Of a DNA stretch of 64,000 nt, positions 42,440-53,922 are shown in pieces (the stretch's first letter is position 1; the number at the start of each line of letters is the position of its first letter). The stretch is taken from NCBI RefSeq assembly GCF_016887565.1, contig NZ_CP069396.1, positions 6,492,001 through 6,556,000 of the forward strand, written 5' to 3'. Below the pieces are notes generated by a model. That model was not told the DNA's origin, did no database searches, and was given only the letters and a program-made list of their open reading frames with translations. Source of the DNA: Archangium violaceum (GTDB lineage: Bacteria; Myxococcota; Myxococcia; Myxococcales; Myxococcaceae). Position numbers and translations under genes: made by a program.

Positions 42440-42847
42440 ATGCCGCCAGACTGGACGCACGGACGTCGAGCCGAGGGCCTGTGCTGGATTCCCATAAAGG
42501 GAGACAGCATGTGGCCCTCGTTGCGTTCGGGGGACGTGGCGGGCGTGGAGCCGCTGGCGGAGGCACCCCGGCCGGGTGAGGTCGTGCTCGCGCGTTTCGC
42601 GCACGCCCTGGTGGTGCACCGCGTGCGCCGGTGTGACGGCGAGACGTGCGTGCTGCTCGGGGACAACGTGCTGGCGGAGGATCCGCCGCTGCCGCGCGCG
42701 CGAGTGCTGGGGCGGGTGAGCCTGGTGCGCCGCGGTGACGAGGTGCTCGCGCCGGGCCGGTGGGACCGGGGGCCGTTGCGCCGGGGCCGCTGGCGGCTGG
42801 TGGTGAAGCGCTGGCTGGCGGCACTGCTCGGACGGAGGCGCGCATGA
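42440..42847 (+). CDS. S24/S26 (signal-peptidase-like) peptidase with Ser-His dyad, no membrane anchor
   Basis: 135 residues. The nucleophile motif KGDSMWPSLRSGDVAGV contains S23. The later VVHRVRR motif has His (H60) where bacterial signal peptidase I has Lys, as in the SipW/Sec11 branch, and the closing GDN motif (LLGDNVLAEDPPLPR) is intact. No transmembrane helix is present; the C-terminus is basic and amphipathic (RWRLVVKRWLAALLGRRR). It heads a six-gene cassette and overlaps the PqqD-like gene by ATGA. In that setting it could trim the leader of the peptide encoded at 46692 (inference). No Shine-Dalgarno precedes ATG 42440. Confidence 0.82.
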   Translation: MPPDWTHGRRAEGLCWIPIKGDSMWPSLRSGDVAGVEPLAEAPRPGEVVLARFAHALVVHRVRRCDGETCVLLGDNVLAEDPPLPRARVLGRVSLVRRGDEVLAPGRWDRGPLRRGRWRLVVKRWLAALLGRRRA

Positions 42848-43134
42848 GCTTCCGCGCGGACGGCATTCCCCGCAGGCGCGAGGGCGCGGACGGCCAGCGC
42901 TTCGGCGAGGACTTCGTGGTGATGGACCCGGAGGGGCGGACGCTGCGGGGCCTCAACGAGACCGCGGCGCGCGTCTGGGAGCTGAGCGACGGGAGTCGAA
43001 CCGCGCGGGACATCGCCGGCGTGGTGGCGCACGAGTACGGCGTGGAGGTGGAGCGGGTGCTCGGGGACTGCCTGCGCTTCCTCGAGTGGCTCGCGGGACG
43101 TGGGCTGTTGGACGCGGAGGAGGTGCTTCGATGA
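42844..43134 (+). CDS. PqqD-like protein (RiPP recognition element)
   Basis: 96 residues. PqqD folds (a three-helix, three-strand winged-helix-like unit) hold the leader of ribosomal peptides for modifying enzymes. The family pattern is clear: FVVMDPEGRTLRGLNETAARVWELSDGSRTARDIAGVVAHEYGVEVERVLGDCLRFLEWLAGRGLL. The gene overlaps its neighbours on both sides by ATGA, placing it firmly in the cassette. Paired with an HPr-kinase-like gene (46894), it recalls the kinase/PqqD sets that I know from unassigned systems. No radical-SAM gene accompanies it here. A partner for the 63-residue peptide is the natural guess. Confidence 0.85.
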   Translation: MSFRADGIPRRREGADGQRFGEDFVVMDPEGRTLRGLNETAARVWELSDGSRTARDIAGVVAHEYGVEVERVLGDCLRFLEWLAGRGLLDAEEVLR

Positions 43135-43607
43135 GAGCGCTCGCGGTGGTGTCGGTGGCCTTGTGGCTGGCGGCCTGCGACGAAGGCGTTTCGGAGCCGC
43201 CGGGCTCGGGGCCCGTGGTGCCCGCCGAGGTGTCGTGGAATGGAATCACCCCGCCGGTGCGGTCCACGCCGCCGCTGCCTCCGCGGGTGGGCACGGCGGA
43301 CGTCACCTACGTGCCGGCGGGGGCGCGCGGCCTGTCCGAGGTGACCTCGGTCGAGGTGCGGCTGCGCGTGGGAGGCATCGTCGGCTCGGCGTCGGTGGAC
43401 GTGGAGCTCCTCGCCCCCGGGCCCTCGGCGTACGAGAGGCGCACCCGGACGGTGGTGGCGATCCCGACCGAGGAGCGCGAGCTCGTCTTCAGCCTGCCGG
43501 TGGCGGGGACGAACATTCCCATCCACGGACTGGGTGGTACCTGGGAGGCGCGCTTCTTCATCGACGGCGCGCCCCTGACCACCACTTTCTTCACCCTGGA
43601 GCGTTGA
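43131..43607 (+). CDS. Small lipoprotein of the peptide cassette
   Basis: 158 residues. The signal VVSVALWLAAC has its lipobox Cys at ~16. The mature protein is beta-rich with an N-terminal Pro/Gly linker (EPPGSGPVVPAEVSWNGITPPVR) and looks like a single Ig-like domain (VRLRVGGIVGSASVDVELLAPG, FSLPVAGTNIPIHGLGGTWEARFFIDG). ATG 43131 overlaps the PqqD-like stop. The large secreted protein gene begins 8 bp later, so the two envelope proteins may form a complex. I do not recognise the family. Confidence 0.72.
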   Translation: MRALAVVSVALWLAACDEGVSEPPGSGPVVPAEVSWNGITPPVRSTPPLPPRVGTADVTYVPAGARGLSEVTSVEVRLRVGGIVGSASVDVELLAPGPSAYERRTRTVVAIPTEERELVFSLPVAGTNIPIHGLGGTWEARFFIDGAPLTTTFFTLER

Positions 43608-43615
43608 AGCCCGCC

Positions 43616-46600
43616 ATGAACGCACGCCCGCTCGCGCTCCTGCTGCTCCTGCTGCCCGCCACCGCGCTGGCCCAGAACGCGTGGACCGTCACGCCCGTCG
43701 ACGGCACCGCGGTGATGGGGGAGATCTCCTCGCTCGTCTTCGAGGTGCGCAACGCCTCCACCAGCACCCGCCCTCTCAACGAGATCAGCCTCGCGGTCGA
43801 CGGTGCCGCCTATGACGTCGACGGAGGCGATGCCCCGGCCGGCTGGACGGTGAGCACCATCGACCGCAAGGAGCGCCGCATCACCTATACGGCGAGCGGT
43901 TCCTGCACCCCGGGGCCGCTGGGGCTCGCGCCGGGCACCGCCGCGCGCTTCACGCTGCGGCTCGTGGGCCTCGCCGCCAACGCCGATGCCACCGATGCGT
44001 TGGTGGGCGGGAACAACCCCAACAAGTCGAGCATGGCCCGTGACTCGTGCTCCGGCACCACGTTCAACGGAGACCCGAGCACGGCGAGCTGGAAGCGCGC
44101 GGGCCTGTCCGCGTCCCTCACGGTGCTGCCGCGCACCCTCCAGCTCGGGGGCGTTGTCTCCGTGCAGCTCCAGGTGGTGAATCGCTCCCTGGCGACCCAG
44201 GGCAACATCACCCTGAGCGGCCCGGGGGTGGTGGGCGGTGCGTCCTTCAACCAGACGGTGGCCTTCTCTCCGGCCTCGCTGTCGCTCGCGCCCGGTGCCA
44301 CCGGGGCCTTCACCGGCAAGCTCCAGTCCACGGGGGAGGGGACCGCTGTCTTCCAGGCCTCGGCGGGCAACGGCACGGTGAGCACCGCGACGACCTCCTC
44401 GCTCCAGGTGATCGTCAGCAGCTTTCCGGCGCTCCTCGAGGTCCTGCCCTCCAGCATCGCCCCGGGCGACACGGTGACGGTGCGGCTCGTGGTGTCCAAC
44501 CCGTCCACGAGCACCTACCGGAACGTCGTCCCCAGCGCGCCCACCTTCACGGGGACGGCGGTGCCCTCCCTGCTGAGCAGCCCCATGCCCGCGAGCGCCG
44601 CGTCGCTCGGACCGGGCTCGTCCGTCTCCTTCCTCTGGAAGTACCAGATGAACGGGCCCATTGGCTCCACATTCCAGTTCGGCGGCCAGGCGGACGCCAC
44701 GCGCGACGGCGCGCCCATCTCCACGGGCACGGCACTCTCCGCTCAGGGCCGCATCGTGGAGCACCGACTCTCCATCGCTCCGTCCTCCGTCATCTCCGGG
44801 GCGAGGAACCGGACGCTCCAGTACACGATCTACAACGGCGGCACGGTGGAGATCCGGAGCGTGAGGCTGCTCACGCCGGACGCGACCTTCTTCACCGTCT
44901 CCCCGTCCGCGCCCTTCGCCAGCGACACCAGCGGTTGGACCCAGTCCGCCACCAACAAGGGCTACACGTGGACGGCCCTCTCCGGGCAGCCCGGCATCAC
45001 TCCGGGCACGCAGAAGACCTTCTCGATCGACTACGCGTCCTTCGGCACCGTCTCCAGCGACACGGCCCTCACCCACCAGTTGGAGCTGACCCAGGTGAGC
45101 GGCTCCACCTCCAACACCCTGCGCGTGGACGCGCCGGTCTCGCTCTTCGTCAACCGGATGATGCCCGAGGTCGACTCGCTGGTGGCGCTCGCCGGACCTG
45201 GCCGCAACACGCTGCTGTGGACCAACCCGTCCGAGCATGACGGGGTGCTCGTGCTGCGCGCCGAGGGCCTCGCCCCCAACACCGCCCCCGAGCCCGGCCG
45301 CCGGTACGCGGTGGGGGAGACGCTCGGCAACGCCACGGTGGTGTACTCGGACGAGCTGAGCGTGGCCTCCACCTACGCGGATACCGGCGTCACCGACGGC
45401 ACCGTGTACTTCTACCGCGTCTACAACCATGACCCGCTGTACCGGTACTCGCCCGGCAACGCGCCGCAGTCGCTCGGGCTGAAGTCCGTCCCCACCAGCC
45501 GTGGAACCGGTCAGCCCCTGTGGTGCTACAGCGTGGGCTTCTCCACCCTGCAGCAGCCCATCACCGAGCTGGGCGTGGGCATCTTCACCGCCAACACCTC
45601 GGGCAGCGTGACGGCCAACCTGACGAACACCTCCACGCCCGTGGCCGATGGCTCCGAGCGCTGGCGTCCGGTGCGGCTCCAGGGCTCCGTGCAGAGCCGC
45701 TTCCCCATCGTCCCGCTCTACAACCGGCCCGGGCAGTACATCCTCACCGGAGACCAGGCGGGCTTCACCTACGCCATCCGCACCGAGACCGGCGAGCTCC
45801 TCTGGCGGAGCACCTCCTCGCTCGGCACCATCCAGTCCTTCCCGGTGGTGCAGCTCTTCAACACCGGCAGCACCAATCAGGCCTACAAGGATGCCTTCCC
45901 CGGGAAGGATCTCGCCTTCTTCGCCACCCGGCTGAGCACTGGCACCACCAACCAGGTGGTGGCGCTCGAGGCCGCCACCGGCGCCCCCGTGTGGACGTAC
46001 TCCCCGGGCGATCTCGGCATGGTGAGCGGGGGCATGCTGATCGATTACACGACCAACCGTCTGTACATGGGCGCTCGCTCCAACGGGGGCTCGCTGGCCT
46101 CGCTGCGCGTGCTCGACAGCCTCACGGGGACGGAGCTGGCCCGGCTGTCCCTCGGGGACATCGACTTCGGCATCATCCGGTATGGCACGAACCTGGCGCT
46201 CGTGACGAACAGCGACGGCAAGGTGTACGGCATCGACATGACGGCGATGACGGTCGCCTGGAGCGCGTCGGTGGCCTCCCGGCCGTCGGCCTCGGTGCCC
46301 GCGTTCTCCCAGTACGCCCGGCCGGTGGGTGGCGGCTTCGTCGTGAGCATCCTCGGCGCCACCGACGCGCTGGGCCGCGTGGAGCGCTGGAGCGTCACCA
46401 CCGACGCCACGGGCGCCACCTCGGTGACCCGGGTCTGGTCCACGCCCATCCCGAGCCCGTCCGGCACCTTCTCGTTCACGAGCGGAGGCGTGCAGCGCCT
46501 CTACGTCGGAGGCAAGGACGAGAAGGTGCACGAGCTGGACTACACCACCGGCGTGGACGGCAAGCAGGTCTCCCTGCCCGGTGCGCTGGCCGTCGGCACG

Positions 46601-46684
46601 CCCACGGTGGACAGCACCGTGTCGCGCCTCCACGTGGGCACACAGGACGGCCGCATCTGCGCCTTCCCGGTGCCGTTCCCCTGA
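43616..46684 (+). CDS. Large secreted protein: repeated Ig-like domains plus PQQ-like beta-propeller
   Basis: 1022 residues with a signal peptide (RPLALLLLLLPATALAQ). The N-terminal ~500 residues are a string of Ig/CARDB-like beta domains rich in Ser and Thr (SFPALLEVLPSSIAPGDTVTVRLVVSNPSTSTYRNV and similar). The second half (~620-1022) has short repeats such as TGDQAGFTYAIRTETGELLWRS, VVALEAATGAPVWTYSPGD, and SDGKVYGIDMTAMTVAWSAS. These match the tryptophan-docking repeats of quinoprotein (PQQ-like) propellers. Whether a cofactor is bound cannot be told. ATG 43616 is 8 bp after the lipoprotein stop, and the peptide gene follows 7 bp later. It could be the surface receptor, carrier or target of the cassette's product. 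Confidence 0.8.
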   Translation: MNARPLALLLLLLPATALAQNAWTVTPVDGTAVMGEISSLVFEVRNASTSTRPLNEISLAVDGAAYDVDGGDAPAGWTVSTIDRKERRITYTASGSCTPGPLGLAPGTAARFTLRLVGLAANADATDALVGGNNPNKSSMARDSCSGTTFNGDPSTASWKRAGLSASLTVLPRTLQLGGVVSVQLQVVNRSLATQGNITLSGPGVVGGASFNQTVAFSPASLSLAPGATGAFTGKLQSTGEGTAVFQASAGNGTVSTATTSSLQVIVSSFPALLEVLPSSIAPGDTVTVRLVVSNPSTSTYRNVVPSAPTFTGTAVPSLLSSPMPASAASLGPGSSVSFLWKYQMNGPIGSTFQFGGQADATRDGAPISTGTALSAQGRIVEHRLSIAPSSVISGARNRTLQYTIYNGGTVEIRSVRLLTPDATFFTVSPSAPFASDTSGWTQSATNKGYTWTALSGQPGITPGTQKTFSIDYASFGTVSSDTALTHQLELTQVSGSTSNTLRVDAPVSLFVNRMMPEVDSLVALAGPGRNTLLWTNPSEHDGVLVLRAEGLAPNTAPEPGRRYAVGETLGNATVVYSDELSVASTYADTGVTDGTVYFYRVYNHDPLYRYSPGNAPQSLGLKSVPTSRGTGQPLWCYSVGFSTLQQPITELGVGIFTANTSGSVTANLTNTSTPVADGSERWRPVRLQGSVQSRFPIVPLYNRPGQYILTGDQAGFTYAIRTETGELLWRSTSSLGTIQSFPVVQLFNTGSTNQAYKDAFPGKDLAFFATRLSTGTTNQVVALEAATGAPVWTYSPGDLGMVSGGMLIDYTTNRLYMGARSNGGSLASLRVLDSLTGTELARLSLGDIDFGIIRYGTNLALVTNSDGKVYGIDMTAMTVAWSASVASRPSASVPAFSQYARPVGGGFVVSILGATDALGRVERWSVTTDATGATSVTRVWSTPIPSPSGTFSFTSGGVQRLYVGGKDEKVHELDYTTGVDGKQVSLPGALAVGTPTVDSTVSRLHVGTQDGRICAFPVPFP

Positions 46685-46691
46685 GCCCTCG

Positions 46692-46883
46692 ATGACGCGC
46701 GATCGCACCCCCACGCCTGAAGGAACCCCGCCCGCGTTGGCCTCGTCCGAGCCGGTGCCGGCCGTGCGTGCGCGCGTCTATGAGCCGCCCGCGGTGCTCT
46801 GGGAGCAGCCCTTCGTCGCGCTCGCGCAGGTGTCCAACAAGGACTACGCCTGTGAGCCGGGTGCGTGCGAGGACGTCCCGTGA
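46692..46883 (+). CDS. Candidate ribosomal peptide precursor (63 residues)
   Basis: A Pro/Glu-rich N-terminal leader is followed by YEPPAVLWEQPF (30-41), reminiscent of the Y-x2-P aromatic patches that RRE proteins bind. The short C-terminal segment VSNKDYACEPGACEDVP has two Cys (54, 59) suited for cyclisation, oxidation or thioether formation. It starts 7 bp after the large secreted-protein gene, and its stop overlaps the SD (GAGG) of the HPr-kinase-like gene. The length, leader/core split and PqqD partner make a modified peptide plausible. Not in any family I know. The boundary between leader and core is not defined. Confidence 0.65.
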   Translation: MTRDRTPTPEGTPPALASSEPVPAVRARVYEPPAVLWEQPFVALAQVSNKDYACEPGACEDVP

Positions 46884-46893
46884 GGTTCCTCCG

Positions 46894-47697
46894 TTGTCCG
46901 GGGTGACACTCGCGTTGGCGGGATGGACGGTGTCCGTCGAGTCGGAGGAGCCATCGCTGGAGGAGCTGCTCCTGCGGGCCTTCGCGGCGTTCCGTACCTG
47001 CGAGCCGGCTCGGGCGCACGTGCGGGTGCTGCGCCCGGAGGCTCCGAGGCCCGCGCCCGACGTGCGTTGCCTGCCCGAGCCCCGGCCGGTCTCCGGAGGT
47101 GGCCTGCGGGTGGAAGGGGAGGACTACGTCGCGGACATCGCGCCCGAGGGCCGGAGCGCCACGGTGACGGGCGAGGGCCGCTTTCCGGTGGACACGGTGT
47201 TGAAGGTGATGCTCGCGGGCGAGCTGGCGAGGCGCGGGGGCCTGTTGGTGCACGGGGTGGCGGTGGAGCACCTCGGGCGCGCGGCGCTCTGGACGGGCCC
47301 ATCCGGGGCGGGGAAGAGCACCCTGGGAGCGCTCTGGGCGGGGGCCGGAGGCACGGTGCTGACGGACGAGCTGGTGGCGGTATGGCCCGAGGCGAGGGGT
47401 TGGCGTGCGGCGGGGACGCCGTGGAACGTGGGGGTTCCCCGCGAGGCCGCGCTGTGCGTCGTGGGGACATTGGGTTGGGACACGGCCTCGCGCTGGGAGC
47501 CGGTGGGCGCCGGAGAGATTGCCCGGGTGTTGCTGCTCAACGCGCTCCTGTCCGAGGCCTCCGCCGCTGGACGTCGCCACCTGATGGGCGCGGCGAGCCG
47601 TCTGCTCGGAGGCGTGGAGACGGCCCGGCTCGTCTTCGCACGGGATGCGTCCGCGGCGGAGGTTGTGCGCGCGAGGCTGGAGGGGGCGAAGCTCTGA
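46894..47697 (+). CDS. HPr kinase-like protein (P-loop)
   Basis: 267 residues. The Walker A GPSGAGKST lies near residue 136, and the surrounding GGLLVHGVAVEHLGRAALWTGPSGAGKSTLGALWAG and VLTDELVAVWPEARGW segments match the HPr kinase/phosphorylase C-terminal fold. The N-terminal part is variable. It may phosphorylate a peptide or a protein partner rather than HPr. TTG 46894 is chosen because GAGG lies eight bases upstream (46882-46885); GTG 46903 is an alternative. The first bases sit inside the precursor's stop region, so the two are translated together. In lasso and other peptide clusters similar kinases modify the precursor, which is the reason to link it to the 63-residue peptide. Confidence 0.82.
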   Translation: MSGVTLALAGWTVSVESEEPSLEELLLRAFAAFRTCEPARAHVRVLRPEAPRPAPDVRCLPEPRPVSGGGLRVEGEDYVADIAPEGRSATVTGEGRFPVDTVLKVMLAGELARRGGLLVHGVAVEHLGRAALWTGPSGAGKSTLGALWAGAGGTVLTDELVAVWPEARGWRAAGTPWNVGVPREAALCVVGTLGWDTASRWEPVGAGEIARVLLLNALLSEASAAGRRHLMGAASRLLGGVETARLVFARDASAAEVVRARLEGAKL

Positions 47698-47710: not shown

Positions 47711-49051
47711 TCAGCCCCGGTGGCGCTCGGCCGCGCGGTAGAGCTGCGTGAGGGAAGAATCCAGGAGAGACTGGCACGACCGCATGTAGTGGTGGGCCCG
47801 GGCAAAAGGAAACCACACGCGGTTGCCGACGAGCACCTGGGCTTCCTCTAGCTTCTTGCGCGGTATCCACTGCCCTCCCAGGTTCCGCACCAGAACCTCG
47901 CCCAGGTAGCCGCCAATGGCGGGCACCGCGTGCGCGTCGATGTGCTGCCGCTCGAATATCCTCGGGAACTCCTCGTGCCAGAACTGGTAGTCCACATCCG
48001 TGAGTGACTCGGGTGTCCCCTTGAGCACGGAGGTCACCTTCGTGTGCAGCAGGGCCACGAGGCGCTCGGCGAGGTAGCCGTAATGCTCGAGGGCTCGCTC
48101 CGGGTCCTCTACGTCTGAGGGGAGGGCGGAGTCGGCGGAGCGCCATTCCTCTGGATCCGGCGGTTTGTACGAGTTGAGCTCGCCGATCTTTCGCTGGCGC
48201 TCATGAATGGCGACGCTGTCCACGACGCGAGAGAGAAGCGGGACCACGTCTGGGTGGAAGCAGGGCTCTACGGGGGCGAGCGTCGCGCTGCGCTCGCGCA
48301 AGGTACGAAGCACGGAGCCGTAGTCCAGGTCTGGCCGGAGGTGGACATGTGCCCGGGCCTGGGCAACGCGCGCTTCCTCGCGGGCGAAGTCCGCGGCGGT
48401 GGGCCACGCCACCAGGAGGACGGAGCCGTTGGCCAACCCCTCCACCCGGTGGGCCGGCGTGGACAGCATGCGCTGGCGGCCCACCGTCTCCACCAGCTTC
48501 GGGCCGAAGACGTTGAGCCAGGACACCTCATAAATCTTGTCGAACCCGTCCCTTCGCGAGGTCCTGTCATCGCGACCGAAGTCGGGAGCGCCCGACAACT
48601 GATCGTCAGCCAGACTGTGGGCCGAGGCATGGGAGACCGGGTAGTGAGAGGCCCACGCGCGCACCATCTCCACGAATGGGATACAGCGCTCGGCCTCCGT
48701 GAAGAAGGAGAGCGGCCGCACCTCGAGCAAGATGTCCAGTCTGGGAGGGGTGGTCGAGAAATAGAGCCTCAGCGTCATGCGTAGACCGGGCCACTTCGTC
48801 CGGTAGAGCCCGATGGTCGTGACGCGTTCGCCGTGCTTCTCCTCCAGCGCCTTCCAGATGGCGGCGCGGGCGTATGGACGTTGCCGCTTGCCTTCGACGA
48901 CGTCCGGCATCCACTCGCCCGCGTACTCCTCGAGCGCTTGAAACAGGGGACCGAGTTCGCTCTCCAGTGCCGCCCGCATGTCGAAGGCCCCATCGAAGGT
49001 GAGCAGGAGACTGTCCTCCGCCTTCATGTCGTGAAACTCCAGCACCTTCAT
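47711..49051 (-). CDS. Probable cytosolic immunity protein for the adjacent toxin
   Basis: 446 residues without signal peptide or transmembrane segments, not recognised with certainty. A beta-rich N-terminal half (LLLTFDGAFDMRAAL, TTIGLYRTKWPGLRMTLRLYFST) precedes a helical C-terminal half. The ATG at 49051 overlaps the toxin stop (ATGA at 49048-49051), the arrangement usual for toxin-then-immunity pairs in myxobacteria. The codon use is less GC-rich than in housekeeping genes. It faces the HPr-kinase-like gene tail to tail, with 13 bp between. Function by context only. Confidence 0.65.
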   Translation of the reverse strand: MKVLEFHDMKAEDSLLLTFDGAFDMRAALESELGPLFQALEEYAGEWMPDVVEGKRQRPYARAAIWKALEEKHGERVTTIGLYRTKWPGLRMTLRLYFSTTPPRLDILLEVRPLSFFTEAERCIPFVEMVRAWASHYPVSHASAHSLADDQLSGAPDFGRDDRTSRRDGFDKIYEVSWLNVFGPKLVETVGRQRMLSTPAHRVEGLANGSVLLVAWPTAADFAREEARVAQARAHVHLRPDLDYGSVLRTLRERSATLAPVEPCFHPDVVPLLSRVVDSVAIHERQRKIGELNSYKPPDPEEWRSADSALPSDVEDPERALEHYGYLAERLVALLHTKVTSVLKGTPESLTDVDYQFWHEEFPRIFERQHIDAHAVPAIGGYLGEVLVRNLGGQWIPRKKLEEAQVLVGNRVWFPFARAHHYMRSCQSLLDSSLTQLYRAAERHRG

Positions 49052-51216
49052 TGGAACAGCACCTCCACTCCCGGAACTTCTTCCTCGACTGCGGCCACGG
49101 CCCTCTTCAGTTCTTTTACTTCCTTGGGCATCAGGGGGCCGCCCTCGTAGACGAGACGAACCCTTGGGACCCGTACCTTGCTGCCCCCGCGGAGAAGCGG
49201 CTGGAGGGAGTCGCGACGGATGTCCAGCGTCTCACCGTATTTCCGCAGAGCTTCCCTCGCATCCGCAATCATCTGCGCATCCAGGGCTGGACCTTTCACT
49301 CCCGAGAGATCGCGGCTCTTGAAGCTGAATGTCTCCACGCGCCGAGGCTGTCCGGCGCGCTCGCTCTCCTCGATGACGAGCACATCCGCATAGCGCAGGC
49401 CGGGGTCCTCCTTCCTCACGCCCACATTCGTCTCGATGCGGGGCTTGTCGAAGTCCCCGAGAAAGCGGCGCTCTGCCCGAGGCAACTGTGCGTCGGCCTC
49501 CAGCAGTTTCACCATGATGCGCTCGAAGGCCAACCCCCGGGCGAACCACCCCCGCATCTGCTCGTAGGCCTCCCATGGCAGGGGACCCTTGGCGGCCTTG
49601 CCCTCCATCACCTCGTGGAGGCGCTTCTCGTAGTATTCGACGTACTCGCGCCAGCGTGGATTACCTCGGGCCTCGGGCGGCGGAGCGTCGAGGGAGGGAC
49701 GCTGCTTCTCCAGCACACCCACGTCCTTGGGCAGGCGCGGGCCCGTGGACTCGAACTCCACCGCCGAGAGTTTTGCTTCCACCACCTCGGGCGTGAGGCC
49801 CGCCTCCTTGTCCACCAGCGAGGCCAGGCTGCCAGGGCGCTCCACACCATGAGCCTCCTTGGAAGAGGGTCCTCTCCTCCCCGCGGAGGAGCCTGTGGCC
49901 CCGGGCCTGGCCCTGGACATCAGCGGCCGTGCCTTGGTCACATCCCCCCGCGCCTCGTATAGGGCCAGCGCGGCGTCCGCTCCGCCCAAGGAGACGAAAC
50001 GGCCCGCCTCTCGGCTGGCTTGTAGATACCGGGCCAGCTCCCGCATGCCGTTCACGCCCAACAGCCCTTCCAACCGCCACGCTGTCTCCTTGAGGGCCCG
50101 TAGGCGCAGCTCCATTGCCTCGAGGCCGGTGAGGACCGGTGCGCCTCGGGCCTCGGTGAGGTAGCGCATGCCCTTTCCGCCTGCGTAGATGGCTACCAGC
50201 AGTGCCGCTGGCGCCAGCTCGCGCGTGGCCTGCTCGTACTTGCCCTGCGTCAGCGAGTACGCCCCATGGCCCGTCCCGGCCAGCAGGCCGTAGAAGCCCA
50301 GCGGCACGCCGAAGGTGAGGTGGTCGAAGCCGCCCAGCACCACGTTGCCTGCCGAGAAATGCTGCTCCGCCCACTTCTTCTCCGCCTCGTCGAGGGCCTC
50401 CTGGTACTCCGGCGGCAGTTGGCCTCGTATGGTGGAGAAGGCGAAGGCTGCCCCGTCACCGCTCATGGGTGAGCTGGAGAGGGCGTCTCTGCCAGCTCGA
50501 GCAAGGCCTCGGCCCACGTCGCTCATTTCAAAGCCCCGGTCCGGACGGGCCGTGGGTTTCAGGCCCCGCTTCTCCAGTGCCGTCTGGAATGCGGGCAGGA
50601 ACTCGAGAGTCTCCGCCAGCCGCTTGTCTTGGGCCAGGAGGGAGACAATCTCCCTCAAGTCGTCATCATGGGCCGAGTTGACGATGAAGAGGGCGAGCAC
50701 CTCGGCCCTGAGGGTTCCATGATGCTCGGTGGCCTCCACGAGGAAGGAGGTGCGCTTGCGGTTGAGGAGGCTGGCGGCATCCTCGCGCAGTGTACCCTGG
50801 GCACCGAGTCGCACGGCCTGCCAGCCGTCCAACGCCCCCACCAGGCGGGGCATGTCCACGTGCTCCTGCAGCGCGAGGAATTCCGCGGGCGAGGTGCATG
50901 TGAGGAAGGGGGCAAGGAGTGCCTCCCTGTCGCCGGAGGAGAAATCGGGCCAGCCTGGAGGCACGGCCTCACCTCCGCAGGAGGGTGGGGCTTGGGTGGC
51001 AGGGGGCGTCTCGCCCGTGCTCGCCAGGGCGGCGTCCAGGCCCAGCCCGAGCCCCGGCGCTCGCAACGTGGAGAAGGCGCGCGGGCCCTCGGAGTTTCTC
51101 CTGCCGGGTTGCGGCGCCAGCGTGACGCAACCGCTCGTCAGCAGCGCGGCCCCCAGAAGCAGCGCCGTCCACCTGTGCGCCCGGGCATGGATCCATTCGA
51201 GGAGCTGGCGCCGCAT
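49048..51216 (-). CDS. Large lipoprotein, polymorphic-toxin-like, with REase-like C-terminus
   Basis: 722 residues. A lipoprotein signal (ALLLGAALLTSGC) is followed by a long helical N-terminal region, a pair of hydrophobic segments (FGVPLGFYGLLAGTGHGAYSL, LAPAALLVAIYAGGKGM) and a linker rich in Arg, Ser and Gly. The C-terminal ~150 residues contain RYADVLVIEESER, then VETFSFKSRDLSG: a D...xxK pair resembling PD-(D/E)xK nuclease cores. Myxobacterial toxins of this kind are exchanged between cells through outer-membrane contact. ATG 51216 is chosen (GAGG upstream). The nuclease call is tentative. Confidence 0.7.
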   Translation of the reverse strand: MRRQLLEWIHARAHRWTALLLGAALLTSGCVTLAPQPGRRNSEGPRAFSTLRAPGLGLGLDAALASTGETPPATQAPPSCGGEAVPPGWPDFSSGDREALLAPFLTCTSPAEFLALQEHVDMPRLVGALDGWQAVRLGAQGTLREDAASLLNRKRTSFLVEATEHHGTLRAEVLALFIVNSAHDDDLREIVSLLAQDKRLAETLEFLPAFQTALEKRGLKPTARPDRGFEMSDVGRGLARAGRDALSSSPMSGDGAAFAFSTIRGQLPPEYQEALDEAEKKWAEQHFSAGNVVLGGFDHLTFGVPLGFYGLLAGTGHGAYSLTQGKYEQATRELAPAALLVAIYAGGKGMRYLTEARGAPVLTGLEAMELRLRALKETAWRLEGLLGVNGMRELARYLQASREAGRFVSLGGADAALALYEARGDVTKARPLMSRARPGATGSSAGRRGPSSKEAHGVERPGSLASLVDKEAGLTPEVVEAKLSAVEFESTGPRLPKDVGVLEKQRPSLDAPPPEARGNPRWREYVEYYEKRLHEVMEGKAAKGPLPWEAYEQMRGWFARGLAFERIMVKLLEADAQLPRAERRFLGDFDKPRIETNVGVRKEDPGLRYADVLVIEESERAGQPRRVETFSFKSRDLSGVKGPALDAQMIADAREALRKYGETLDIRRDSLQPLLRGGSKVRVPRVRLVYEGGPLMPKEVKELKRAVAAVEEEVPGVEVLFQ

Positions 51217-51324
51217 TGCCAGCCGCCTCAGTCGCTTCCCGAAACAACGGCCGGGGTGGGTGTCGGCGTCATGGCTGCCAGTCTGTTGCCACCGCAATGC
51301 ACCGCGCAAGCCTGCCTGAGAAAC

Positions 51325-52245
51325 TCATCGCGGAATCGCCACCTTCGGGATGCTGATCGAGCGGGGTCCGTCCTCCCGAAGCATCACGGTGATGTCTCCG
51401 ACAGGCTCTCCACTTCCGGCGTCCGCCTCCACCACCACCAGACGCCGCTCCTTCGGTGGGATGGCACCCTCCTGCCAGAGCCGTATGCCCGGCAACTTCG
51501 CCCCCGTGGCATCCACCAGCGCCGCGTCAGCTGCCGTCCAGGGTTCCGGACTGTCGTTGCGCAGCCATACCTCCACCGCCACCCGGTAGGTGGAGCGATA
51601 GCTGGTGCCCCTGAACACCGAGAGCATGCCCTCCGTGTATCCGATGAGTTCCTTTCTGAAGTCCTGGGCGCGGATGCCATCCTTGCCCATCGCCCTGCTG
51701 GCGATGAGCCTCCGCATCCCCCCCGGATCTCCACACTCGATACTCAACTGCTCGAATCGATGCTGGAGCCGCTCGAACTCGTTCCGCAGTTGCTCGTTCC
51801 TGGCGCGTTCCTGCTCCATCTCATGCTGGAATGACTCGCGGGTCCGCTTGTCGCGGTACACCTCCACCTGGTGCGCCGCCTGTCCCGAGTGAGCCACCAG
51901 GATGAAGGTGACTCGACCCTGGACGCTCCCGTCTCCGAACACAGCCGTCAGCCGGAGCCGTTCCCCAGGTGTCATATCCACCGGGGGGATGATGCTGATG
52001 CTGGTGCGGCTGCGCGTCACCTCCATGAAGCGCACCTCGTCTTGCAGATCCACGACGACGGGGACGTCGAAGACGAAACCCGTCAGCAGACCCGGGCTGA
52101 CACAGATCTCGTATGTGCCAGCTGTCAGTGACAGTTCGATGCGCTGCACGCTCTGGCAACTCGGAGCAGCAGGGGCCGGTTGCACAACGGGTGCGCTTCG
52201 AAGCAATACCAGAGCCAGGATGGAGATGGAGCAGGGAGGGAGCAC
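51325..52245 (-). CDS. DUF2381 family protein
   Basis: 306 residues. A signal peptide (SISILALVLLRSAPVVQPAPAAP) is followed by beta-rich halves split by a coiled coil (~140-175: ESFQHEMEQERARNEQLRNEFERLQHR). The segments EICVSPGLLTGFVFD, VEVYRDKRTRESFQ, and YRVAVEVWLRN are typical of DUF2381, a family I know from myxobacteria, often beside Ser/Thr kinase genes as here. Function not established. It lies 18 bp downstream of the kinase gene's stop and probably belongs to its transcript. Confidence 0.85.
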   Translation of the reverse strand: MLPPCSISILALVLLRSAPVVQPAPAAPSCQSVQRIELSLTAGTYEICVSPGLLTGFVFDVPVVVDLQDEVRFMEVTRSRTSISIIPPVDMTPGERLRLTAVFGDGSVQGRVTFILVAHSGQAAHQVEVYRDKRTRESFQHEMEQERARNEQLRNEFERLQHRFEQLSIECGDPGGMRRLIASRAMGKDGIRAQDFRKELIGYTEGMLSVFRGTSYRSTYRVAVEVWLRNDSPEPWTAADAALVDATGAKLPGIRLWQEGAIPPKERRLVVVEADAGSGEPVGDITVMLREDGPRSISIPKVAIPR

Positions 52246-52263
52246 GGAGCGCGGTCTCCTGGC

Positions 52264-53922
52264 CTAGTTGAATGTGTATGACGCCACGACGGTGACGCTG
52301 GGGCTGATGTTGGGATTCCTGGCCGTACCGCCTTCCATGGGCAATACGCCCAGAACGCCGTTCTCGTACACCTCCAGGCAGATCGGCACGACCTCTCCGC
52401 TGGCGAGACGCGCCTCGGTGAATCGGGCGTAGACCCGCTCCTTCCCGACGAAGAGCTCCCCGGAGAATATCGTTCCGTCCGGTATCCCTCCCCAGGGCCC
52501 GATGTTCATCGCGGAGACAGGGCCCGGCTTCGCGGACATGACCATGGGTTTATCGAAGGGAGGGAACAGCGCGCCGTGCACTTCTCCGAAGCGGATATCG
52601 AATCGCTTGAACGTCTCGGCCGAGCCGGGCGGGCACGTGGTCGGGGCAGGGGGACGGAGCGGCGGGCCACTCGCGCAGGCGGTACCCACGCAGATCAGGG
52701 CGGTGGTCAGGATGCGGTTCTTCTTCATTTCGGGTTCCTCGCTGGTCGTCGCGCTGGCGACGGGCGCGGGGGTAGGTGACTTCCGCGGTTCCGCGCCGTG
52801 CACAACTTCTCCCGTCACCTCGGGGAGCGCTATTTCCTGGCGAGGAATGGCCTGGTGCGGAGGGAGGGGGGGAGGAGACGTGGAACGTTGGACGGTGTGC
52901 CAGGAGAGCACGCTGGTCGCCACCAGGACCGTGGTGAGGACGAGCCCCGCGATCCATCTCGGCCTGGAGGTCCGGCGCGCGGGTGCGGCCGTGGCTCGTT
53001 TCCCGGGGCGTCCGTCACCGGCGAAGAGCGGCACGCTCCAGGCGGCATCCGCCAGGGCCAGGAGCTCCACCAGCGCGCGCTCGAGTGCCGTGGCGTCCAC
53101 GTACCGGGCCTCGGGGGCCTTCTCCAACATGCGCAGGCACAGCCGGCTCAGCGCCAGGGGAACGCGCGGGTTGCGCTCGTGCGGAGGGACCGGGTTCTCC
53201 TGGAGGATGGCGAGCATCAGATCCGGACGGCTCCGGTCCCCGAAAGGGAGCTCGCGCGTCAGCAGGCAGTAGAGCGTGACGCCCAGGGCCCACAGGTCGT
53301 CTGCCGGCCCGGCCGGGTAGTGCTCCCCCTCCCACGCCCGTGCGAAGCGCACCACGTCGGGGCTGCGGTACTCGGCCGTCCCCGGAGGGAGCCGCATCGT
53401 CAGGCGCGGCGCGCCCTCGTATCCGGCCGCGCCGAAGTCCACCAGCACCGGTTGCCCATCCGCCTCGCGCATGAGGATGTTGGCTTCCTTGATGTCCCGG
53501 TGCACCACTCCGGTTTCATGCACGTCCGCCAGGGTGCGCGCGAGCGGCAGCAGCACCTGGGTCACCAGCTCGAGCGCGGACGGGTTCTTCCCCTGGGCCC
53601 ACACGTCCAGGGGCTCCCCCTCGATGAGCTCCAGGGCCAGGACCAGGAAGCGAGGCTCCTCGTCCGGCCAGAAGCCATAGCCGTGGAATTCCACCACGTT
53701 CGGGTGACGCCACACCCGGCGCAGGGTGTCCACCTCCCGGTCCCCTCGCGGGTCCATGGGGACCAGCTTGATGGCGAAGGGGTGCTCGAGCCGCCTGGCG
53801 CGATAGACGGTGCCGAAGCTGCCGGAGGCGAGCTTCCCCTCGATGATGAAGCCCGCCACCTCCGTTCCGGGAGACAGGTCCTGCCAGGATCGCTCACGTG
53901 ATTCATCGCTTCCGTCTTGCAT
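52264..53922 (-). CDS. Ser/Thr protein kinase fused in frame to a lipoprotein-like domain
   Basis: 552 residues. An active-type Hanks kinase (~20-290) has K52, HRDIKEAN (D143) and DFG 162-164, followed by one transmembrane helix (~323-341). After a Pro/Glu linker, residue 399 is a Met that begins a second lipoprotein signal (MKKNRILTTALICVGTAC) and a small beta domain. That ATG (52726-52728) has GAGGA seven bases upstream, so it can be translated on its own. Thus either a fusion protein or two overlapping products exist. ATG 53922 has GGAGG eight bases upstream. DUF2381 follows. Such kinase-tail domains are common in myxobacteria. Confidence 0.85.
   Translation of the reverse strand: MQDGSDESRERSWQDLSPGTEVAGFIIEGKLASGSFGTVYRARRLEHPFAIKLVPMDPRGDREVDTLRRVWRHPNVVEFHGYGFWPDEEPRFLVLALELIEGEPLDVWAQGKNPSALELVTQVLLPLARTLADVHETGVVHRDIKEANILMREADGQPVLVDFGAAGYEGAPRLTMRLPPGTAEYRSPDVVRFARAWEGEHYPAGPADDLWALGVTLYCLLTRELPFGDRSRPDLMLAILQENPVPPHERNPRVPLALSRLCLRMLEKAPEARYVDATALERALVELLALADAAWSVPLFAGDGRPGKRATAAPARRTSRPRWIAGLVLTTVLVATSVLSWHTVQRSTSPPPLPPHQAIPRQEIALPEVTGEVVHGAEPRKSPTPAPVASATTSEEPEMKKNRILTTALICVGTACASGPPLRPPAPTTCPPGSAETFKRFDIRFGEVHGALFPPFDKPMVMSAKPGPVSAMNIGPWGGIPDGTIFSGELFVGKERVYARFTEARLASGEVVPICLEVYENGVLGVLPMEGGTARNPNISPSVTVVASYTFN

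Follow-up and report, generated by a model that had tools for sequence, protein, structure and literature searches.

The window analysed here, a 64,000-nucleotide stretch of the Archangium violaceum genome (13.2 Mb, single contig), holds a block of six plus-strand genes downstream of hisS, the fifth of which is a short frame for a conserved peptide. The genes of the block, together with the parts into which we divide the peptide, are as follows:

42440–42847, plus strand: S26/S24-type signal-peptidase-like peptidase, a candidate leader peptidase (Pfam Peptidase_S24, 2e-11)
42844–43134, plus strand: PqqD-type RiPP recognition element, RRE (Pfam PqqD, 4.2e-16; ATGA overlap on both sides)
43131–43607, plus strand: putative lipoprotein (lipobox-like LAAC; conserved position in the block)
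43616–46684, plus strand: large Sec-exported protein, 1022 aa, with a signal peptide, Ig-like domains and a C-terminal BamB/PQQ-like beta-propeller (Pfam PQQ_2, 1.9e-8)
46692–46883, plus strand: putative precursor peptide gene, 63 aa, conserved family
46692–46778, plus strand: N-terminal spacer of the peptide, near-neutral (dN/dS about 1)
46779–46835, plus strand: leader block YEPPAVLWEQPFVALAQVS with YxxP and ALA, Ser48 last (pN/pS 0.26)
46836–46880, plus strand: core NKDYACEPGACEDVP, two Cys around Pro-Gly
46903–47697, plus strand: HPrK/PEPCK-fold kinase, starting at GTG 46903 or else at TTG 46894 (AlphaFold, Foldseek, VIA-align)

ATGA overlaps join the first three genes, and only some 7–20 nt separate the later ones; the block is therefore best regarded as one operon. 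Its order—S26-like peptidase, PqqD-type protein, lipoprotein, secreted protein, peptide, kinase—is fixed in over 40 loci. In nearly all loci the S26 gene opens the block and the peptide gene comes immediately after that of the secreted protein, and nearly all complete loci encode a PqqD-like RRE with the precursor. Domain searches of the six proteins found no classical RiPP-modifying enzyme, the kinase being the only modifying-enzyme candidate in this Myxococcaceae operon, and no dedicated exporter is encoded in it. Between the operon and miaA (~54090) lie 446-aa, 753-aa, 306-aa and Ser/Thr-kinase-like genes, all on the minus strand (47711–53922); this stretch looks like an insertion, since miaA directly follows the kinase gene in relatives such as L040.

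The short frame is a genuine gene, far above what chance would produce. It runs from an ATG at 46692 to a TGA at 46881–46883 and encodes MTRDRTPTPEGTPPALASSEPVPAVRARVYEPPAVLWEQPFVALAQVSNKDYACEPGACEDVP; a first-pass annotation had called this 63-residue frame, and the two segments that it singled out, YEPPAVLWEQPF in the middle and CEPGAC near the end, are both present in the translation. The same annotation looked to orthologous short frames beside homologues of the flanking genes, and these exist: with the kinase as query in 59 relatives, followed by three-frame translation upstream of each match (minus-strand loci were turned beforehand), peptides with the same motif were recovered at the equivalent site. 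As for frameshifts in relatives, aligned orthologues differ in length by whole codons, and interior stops were not seen among them. None of the Pfam and NCBIfam models matches the peptide, and our literature searches found no description of a peptide/kinase/PqqD/S26/propeller system.

Purifying selection is confined to the peptide's own frame. Pooled over 31 codons in 39 genomes, with shared ancestry ignored, pN/pS is 0.33 in frame but 1.66 and 2.08 when the remaining two frames are read, a frame-specific pattern that rules out a chance ORF; in the same set, variable sites number 10, 10 and 24 at codon positions 1, 2 and 3. The first pass had proposed comparing synonymous and non-synonymous rates, and the pooled value departs from equality; however, whole-ORF dN/dS is only ~0.85 in the closest pairs, because the N-terminal 29 residues are near-neutral and constraint is restricted to the YxxP block (pN/pS 0.26) and the tail (0.43, both pooled and uncorrected for kinship). 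With a drifting N-terminus and few sites, whole-ORF pairwise values between the nearest species are uninformative.

While the spacer drifts, the leader block that follows it, YxxPAILWEQPFVALAQxS, is close to invariant, and the post-spacer consensus in most genomes reads Y[EV][AP]PAILWEQPFVALAQ[IL]SxCxIPGESECxP. Exactly two Cys are found in 49/49 tails of this main family (subfamily 1), with a Cys spacing of 4–8; in two genomes the pair persists although its second Cys is displaced by one position. ALA occurs in 47 of the 49 peptides, and the residue two after ALAQ (Y+18) is Ser in 47, Thr in one and insertion-shifted in another. All but a few of the tails terminate in Pro, and none in Ser. The YxxP stands in a lasso-like register, Y-x2-P-x-[ILV], and is replaced by WxxP in the L104 orthologue; motifs of both forms, YxxP and W/Y/LxxP, are on record as recognised by RREs (PMC12710340). 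With its recognition-motif leader and distinct core, the peptide has the build of an RRE-dependent RiPP precursor.

This leader/core reading, first drawn from the one sequence together with the likeness of Y-x2-P to leaders bound by PqqD-type domains and the pair of core Cys, is well supported by the near-invariant YxxP block, the drifting spacer and the constancy of the two tail Cys. About 50 genomes show the same split, as does a second, diverged system (below), and the suggested tie to a PqqD-type protein has its counterpart in the PqqD domain encoded upstream, and again in that second system.

With the peptide alignment (A1) as a profile over 145 genomes of the order, 55 genomes are matched, one copy each (two fragments in G010), with best E values within the family of about 1e-15 to 1e-26. 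The peptide is present in all 16 genomes of genus g26 and all 27 of genus g23, 43 species, and named records identify these two fully covered genera as Corallococcus and Myxococcus/Pyxidicoccus. Named records with the family come from Archangium, Citreicoccus, Corallococcus, Myxococcus (including M. xanthus) and Pyxidicoccus. One assembly titled Comamonas sp. KCTC 72670 (BNCN01000013.1, L142) also bears a Myxococcus-type cluster; it is probably mislabelled, since this stretch (G124) falls with genus g23.

The second system lies in the same genome at about G000:C1:2548490-2556000 (L128:6490-14001) and comprises a PqqD protein, a 1966-aa Ig/FG-GAP lipoprotein, a peptide (YRPPRVRSERIIVPDLFQPTNCDPFGDPRPECL), a kinase and an S26-like protein. 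Its peptide family (subfamily 2) is found in 21 of the 145 genomes, 18 of them convincing, and has two Cys in each of the six tails examined (6/6). The genome has two PqqD domains only, and each adjoins one such two-Cys peptide. In some relatives of this system the S26-like domain is fused to a GNAT acetyltransferase (L048:6358-7329, with equivalents in L049 and L051), an architecture that may combine modification and cutting in one enzyme.

Two outgroup loci (L107:7341-13399 and L127:2534-10247) combine a peptide of this kind with genes for PqqD, a kinase and a radical SAM/SPASM enzyme, a grouping that resembles RiPP clusters. Their radical SAM/SPASM enzymes are 51% identical; L127 adds an NTP_transf_5 gene, and in L107 the gene order is different with the peptide still present. 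The Myxococcaceae form appears to do without a radical SAM enzyme, because the window genome has no close homologue and only those two PqqD domains; the best match there, 35% over 156 aa, was rejected as an orthologue. Further afield, G054 (L166:7062-7199) and G157 (L167:7278-7412) encode two-Cys peptides of the form YxxPxIxxEExFExxALAC, whose neighbours are either a giant secreted protein or genes of the S26 and radical SAM types; these peptides may be wider relatives of the family. Weak profile matches in G171, G075, G185 and G193, on the other hand, resemble chance. A Cys-rich 60-aa YxxP-type peptide also follows a giant secreted protein at L053:4192-4374, with a kinase about 3 kb off.

The kinase was modelled with high confidence (AlphaFold pLDDT 94.5) and the model has a PEPCK/HPrK fold: VIA-align superposes it on PEPCK with Z 15.1 over 234 residues at 4.0 A, and Foldseek also returns HPrK/P. 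Against the NCBIfam model HprK_rel it scores 26.7 bits, with a cut-off of 200. The Walker A motif GxSGAGKST and the Asp of LxDE are invariant among loci. HPrK homologues are known to phosphorylate lasso RiPP precursors at a C-terminal Ser (PMC8498205); the phosphoacceptor here must be a different one, since the subfamily-1 peptides do not end in Ser, and by conservation Ser48 is the best candidate.

In the S26-like protein, a Ser (GxSMWPxL) and a His (LVxHRV) are conserved in subfamily 1 and in the outgroups, a pattern that we take to be that of SipW/Sec11-type signal peptidases; phmmer found no match to it among solved structures. Signal peptidases prefer A-x-A, and the ALA before Gln in the peptide agrees with this preference. 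A cut at that site is nevertheless a guess, because subfamily 2 lacks the ALA although it has an S26-like enzyme, and because the S26 gene was not detected in loci L044, L046, L047 and L127, several of them truncated where a contig stops. A review of RiPP leader proteases leaves signal-peptidase or S26 enzymes unmentioned (PMC10885120).

The AlphaFold model of the secreted protein reached a pTM of just 0.49, and in its top Foldseek rows long repeats are superposed at very large rmsd, so that among its structural matches those to a BamB-like propeller and Ig-like domains alone appear credible. Cys 97, 145, 637 and 1015 are invariant in 14/14 sequences; two of the four sit at the ends of the propeller. 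The four are possible partners for the Cys pair of the peptide.

The reality of the gene, its modular conservation, the fixed operon and the intact catalytic motifs are directly supported, and a model supplies the kinase fold. On these grounds the 63-aa peptide is probably a small precursor that is modified and trimmed by the machinery of its own operon. We put at roughly 0.6 the probability of an RRE-guided, RiPP-like system in which PqqD-guided modification by the kinase is followed by S26 trimming and by action with the secreted propeller protein. We infer the steps as follows: the PqqD-type protein would grip the YxxP...WEQPF leader block and bring the C-terminal tail within reach of the HPrK-like kinase; the most likely target of phosphorylation would be the conserved Ser/Thr that comes shortly behind LAQ, in this peptide Ser48; a cut at ALA|Q by the S26 signal-peptidase-like enzyme would then free a short peptide, whose two Cys could close a loop around Pro-Gly; and the short peptide would act together with the co-encoded secreted protein.

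Most natural-product RiPPs have variable cores; here the core is almost invariant and the gene single-copy in two genera. With a core that hardly changes, a single copy in each genome and a secreted partner, the peptide would seem more a conserved working part of the cell than a variable natural product. In its fullest form, this would be a kinase-modified, two-Cys, RRE-guided micro-peptide, made without a classical RiPP enzyme, trimmed by a signal-peptidase-like enzyme and docked on, or covalently joined to, a secreted surface beta-propeller protein—a proposal that we make tentatively and consider less likely than not.

A conventional RiPP natural product, with the modified core set free to work as a signal or an antibiotic and with the propeller protein as its receptor, carrier or immunity factor, is unlikely. 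An RRE, a precursor, a candidate protease and a tailoring-type kinase do share an operon, and there are relatives with radical SAM enzymes; however, the operon lacks an exporter, the core hardly varies over 39 genomes, and the cluster occupies one syntenic spot in every species of two genera, which is more housekeeping-like than expected of a variable weapon. We consider it improbable, too, that the peptide is processed but otherwise enzymatically unmodified, a structural partner whose assembly with the secreted protein is chaperoned by PqqD: the adjacency of the two genes and the four invariant Cys of the secreted protein speak for such a role, but the catalytic residues of the kinase are strictly conserved and the peptide itself carries no export signal.

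It is very unlikely that the frame is a regulatory or coupling ORF, translated in order to control the kinase gene that follows it. The gaps are short on both sides, and the first-pass annotation had seen the peptide's stop overlap the Shine-Dalgarno sequence of the kinase gene: in four genomes, this one and its three nearest relatives, TGAGG does overlap the stop, 8 nt ahead of TTG 46894. However, GTG 46903 is the more probable choice for the conserved start of the kinase, and the motif reads TGAGC or TGAAC in other genera, which leaves the shared-SD argument weak beyond the closest relatives. Conservation of the leader block and the Cys pair is at the amino-acid level, and the L107 peptide persists despite its altered gene order. 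A lasso peptide precursor is largely refuted: the leader register YxxPx[LIV] is as in lasso leaders, and HPrK kinases and nucleotidyltransferases are known in lasso clusters (PMC8498205; compare the NTP_transf_5 gene of L127), but the genome has no B2 protease (PF13471) above the Pfam cut-off, the six operon proteins include no Asn-synthetase-like cyclase, the -2 equivalent of the leader is Ala in nearly all peptides and the lasso Thr in one, and core positions 7–9 have no consistent acidic residue.

The RRE-guided, kinase-modified system that we favour nonetheless has parts in common with several characterised systems. Phosphorylated lasso systems of the paeninodin type share with it the discrete PqqD-like RRE (B1), the YxxP register and an HPrK-like kinase beside the precursor; in contrast, the present system lacks B2 and cyclase and has two core Cys and a secreted propeller protein, and its kinase shares the HPrK fold of PadeK-like lasso kinases but meets peptides that end in Pro or other residues. 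SynChlorMet (kinase-like ScmC, PqqD ScmD, radical SAM ScmE/F) and HPr-rel-A (TIGR04352/TIGR04353) likewise pair an HPrK-related protein with PqqD, and the outgroup radical SAM/SPASM enzyme matches ScmE among other models; unlike these, the Myxococcaceae operon has no radical SAM gene and adds the S26 peptidase and secreted propeller protein, and all scores against their curated NCBIfam models fall far below the cut-offs. PQQ biosynthesis (PqqA-PqqD-PqqE) has the PqqD fold and a short peptide substrate in common with the block, and the secreted partner here is a PQQ_2-type propeller, whereas PqqE and PQQ genes are absent from the block; the propeller matches BamB-like repeats, a match from which PQQ binding would not follow.

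The finding provides a peptide family outside Pfam and NCBIfam whose members are encoded with an RRE, a kinase, an S26-type enzyme and a secreted protein with a propeller, and it offers a concrete candidate substrate for the PqqD and HPrK-like kinase cassette. The family occurs in all examined species of Myxococcus/Pyxidicoccus and Corallococcus, including the genetically tractable Myxococcus xanthus, so that a role for RiPP-style machinery beyond variable natural products would be directly testable.
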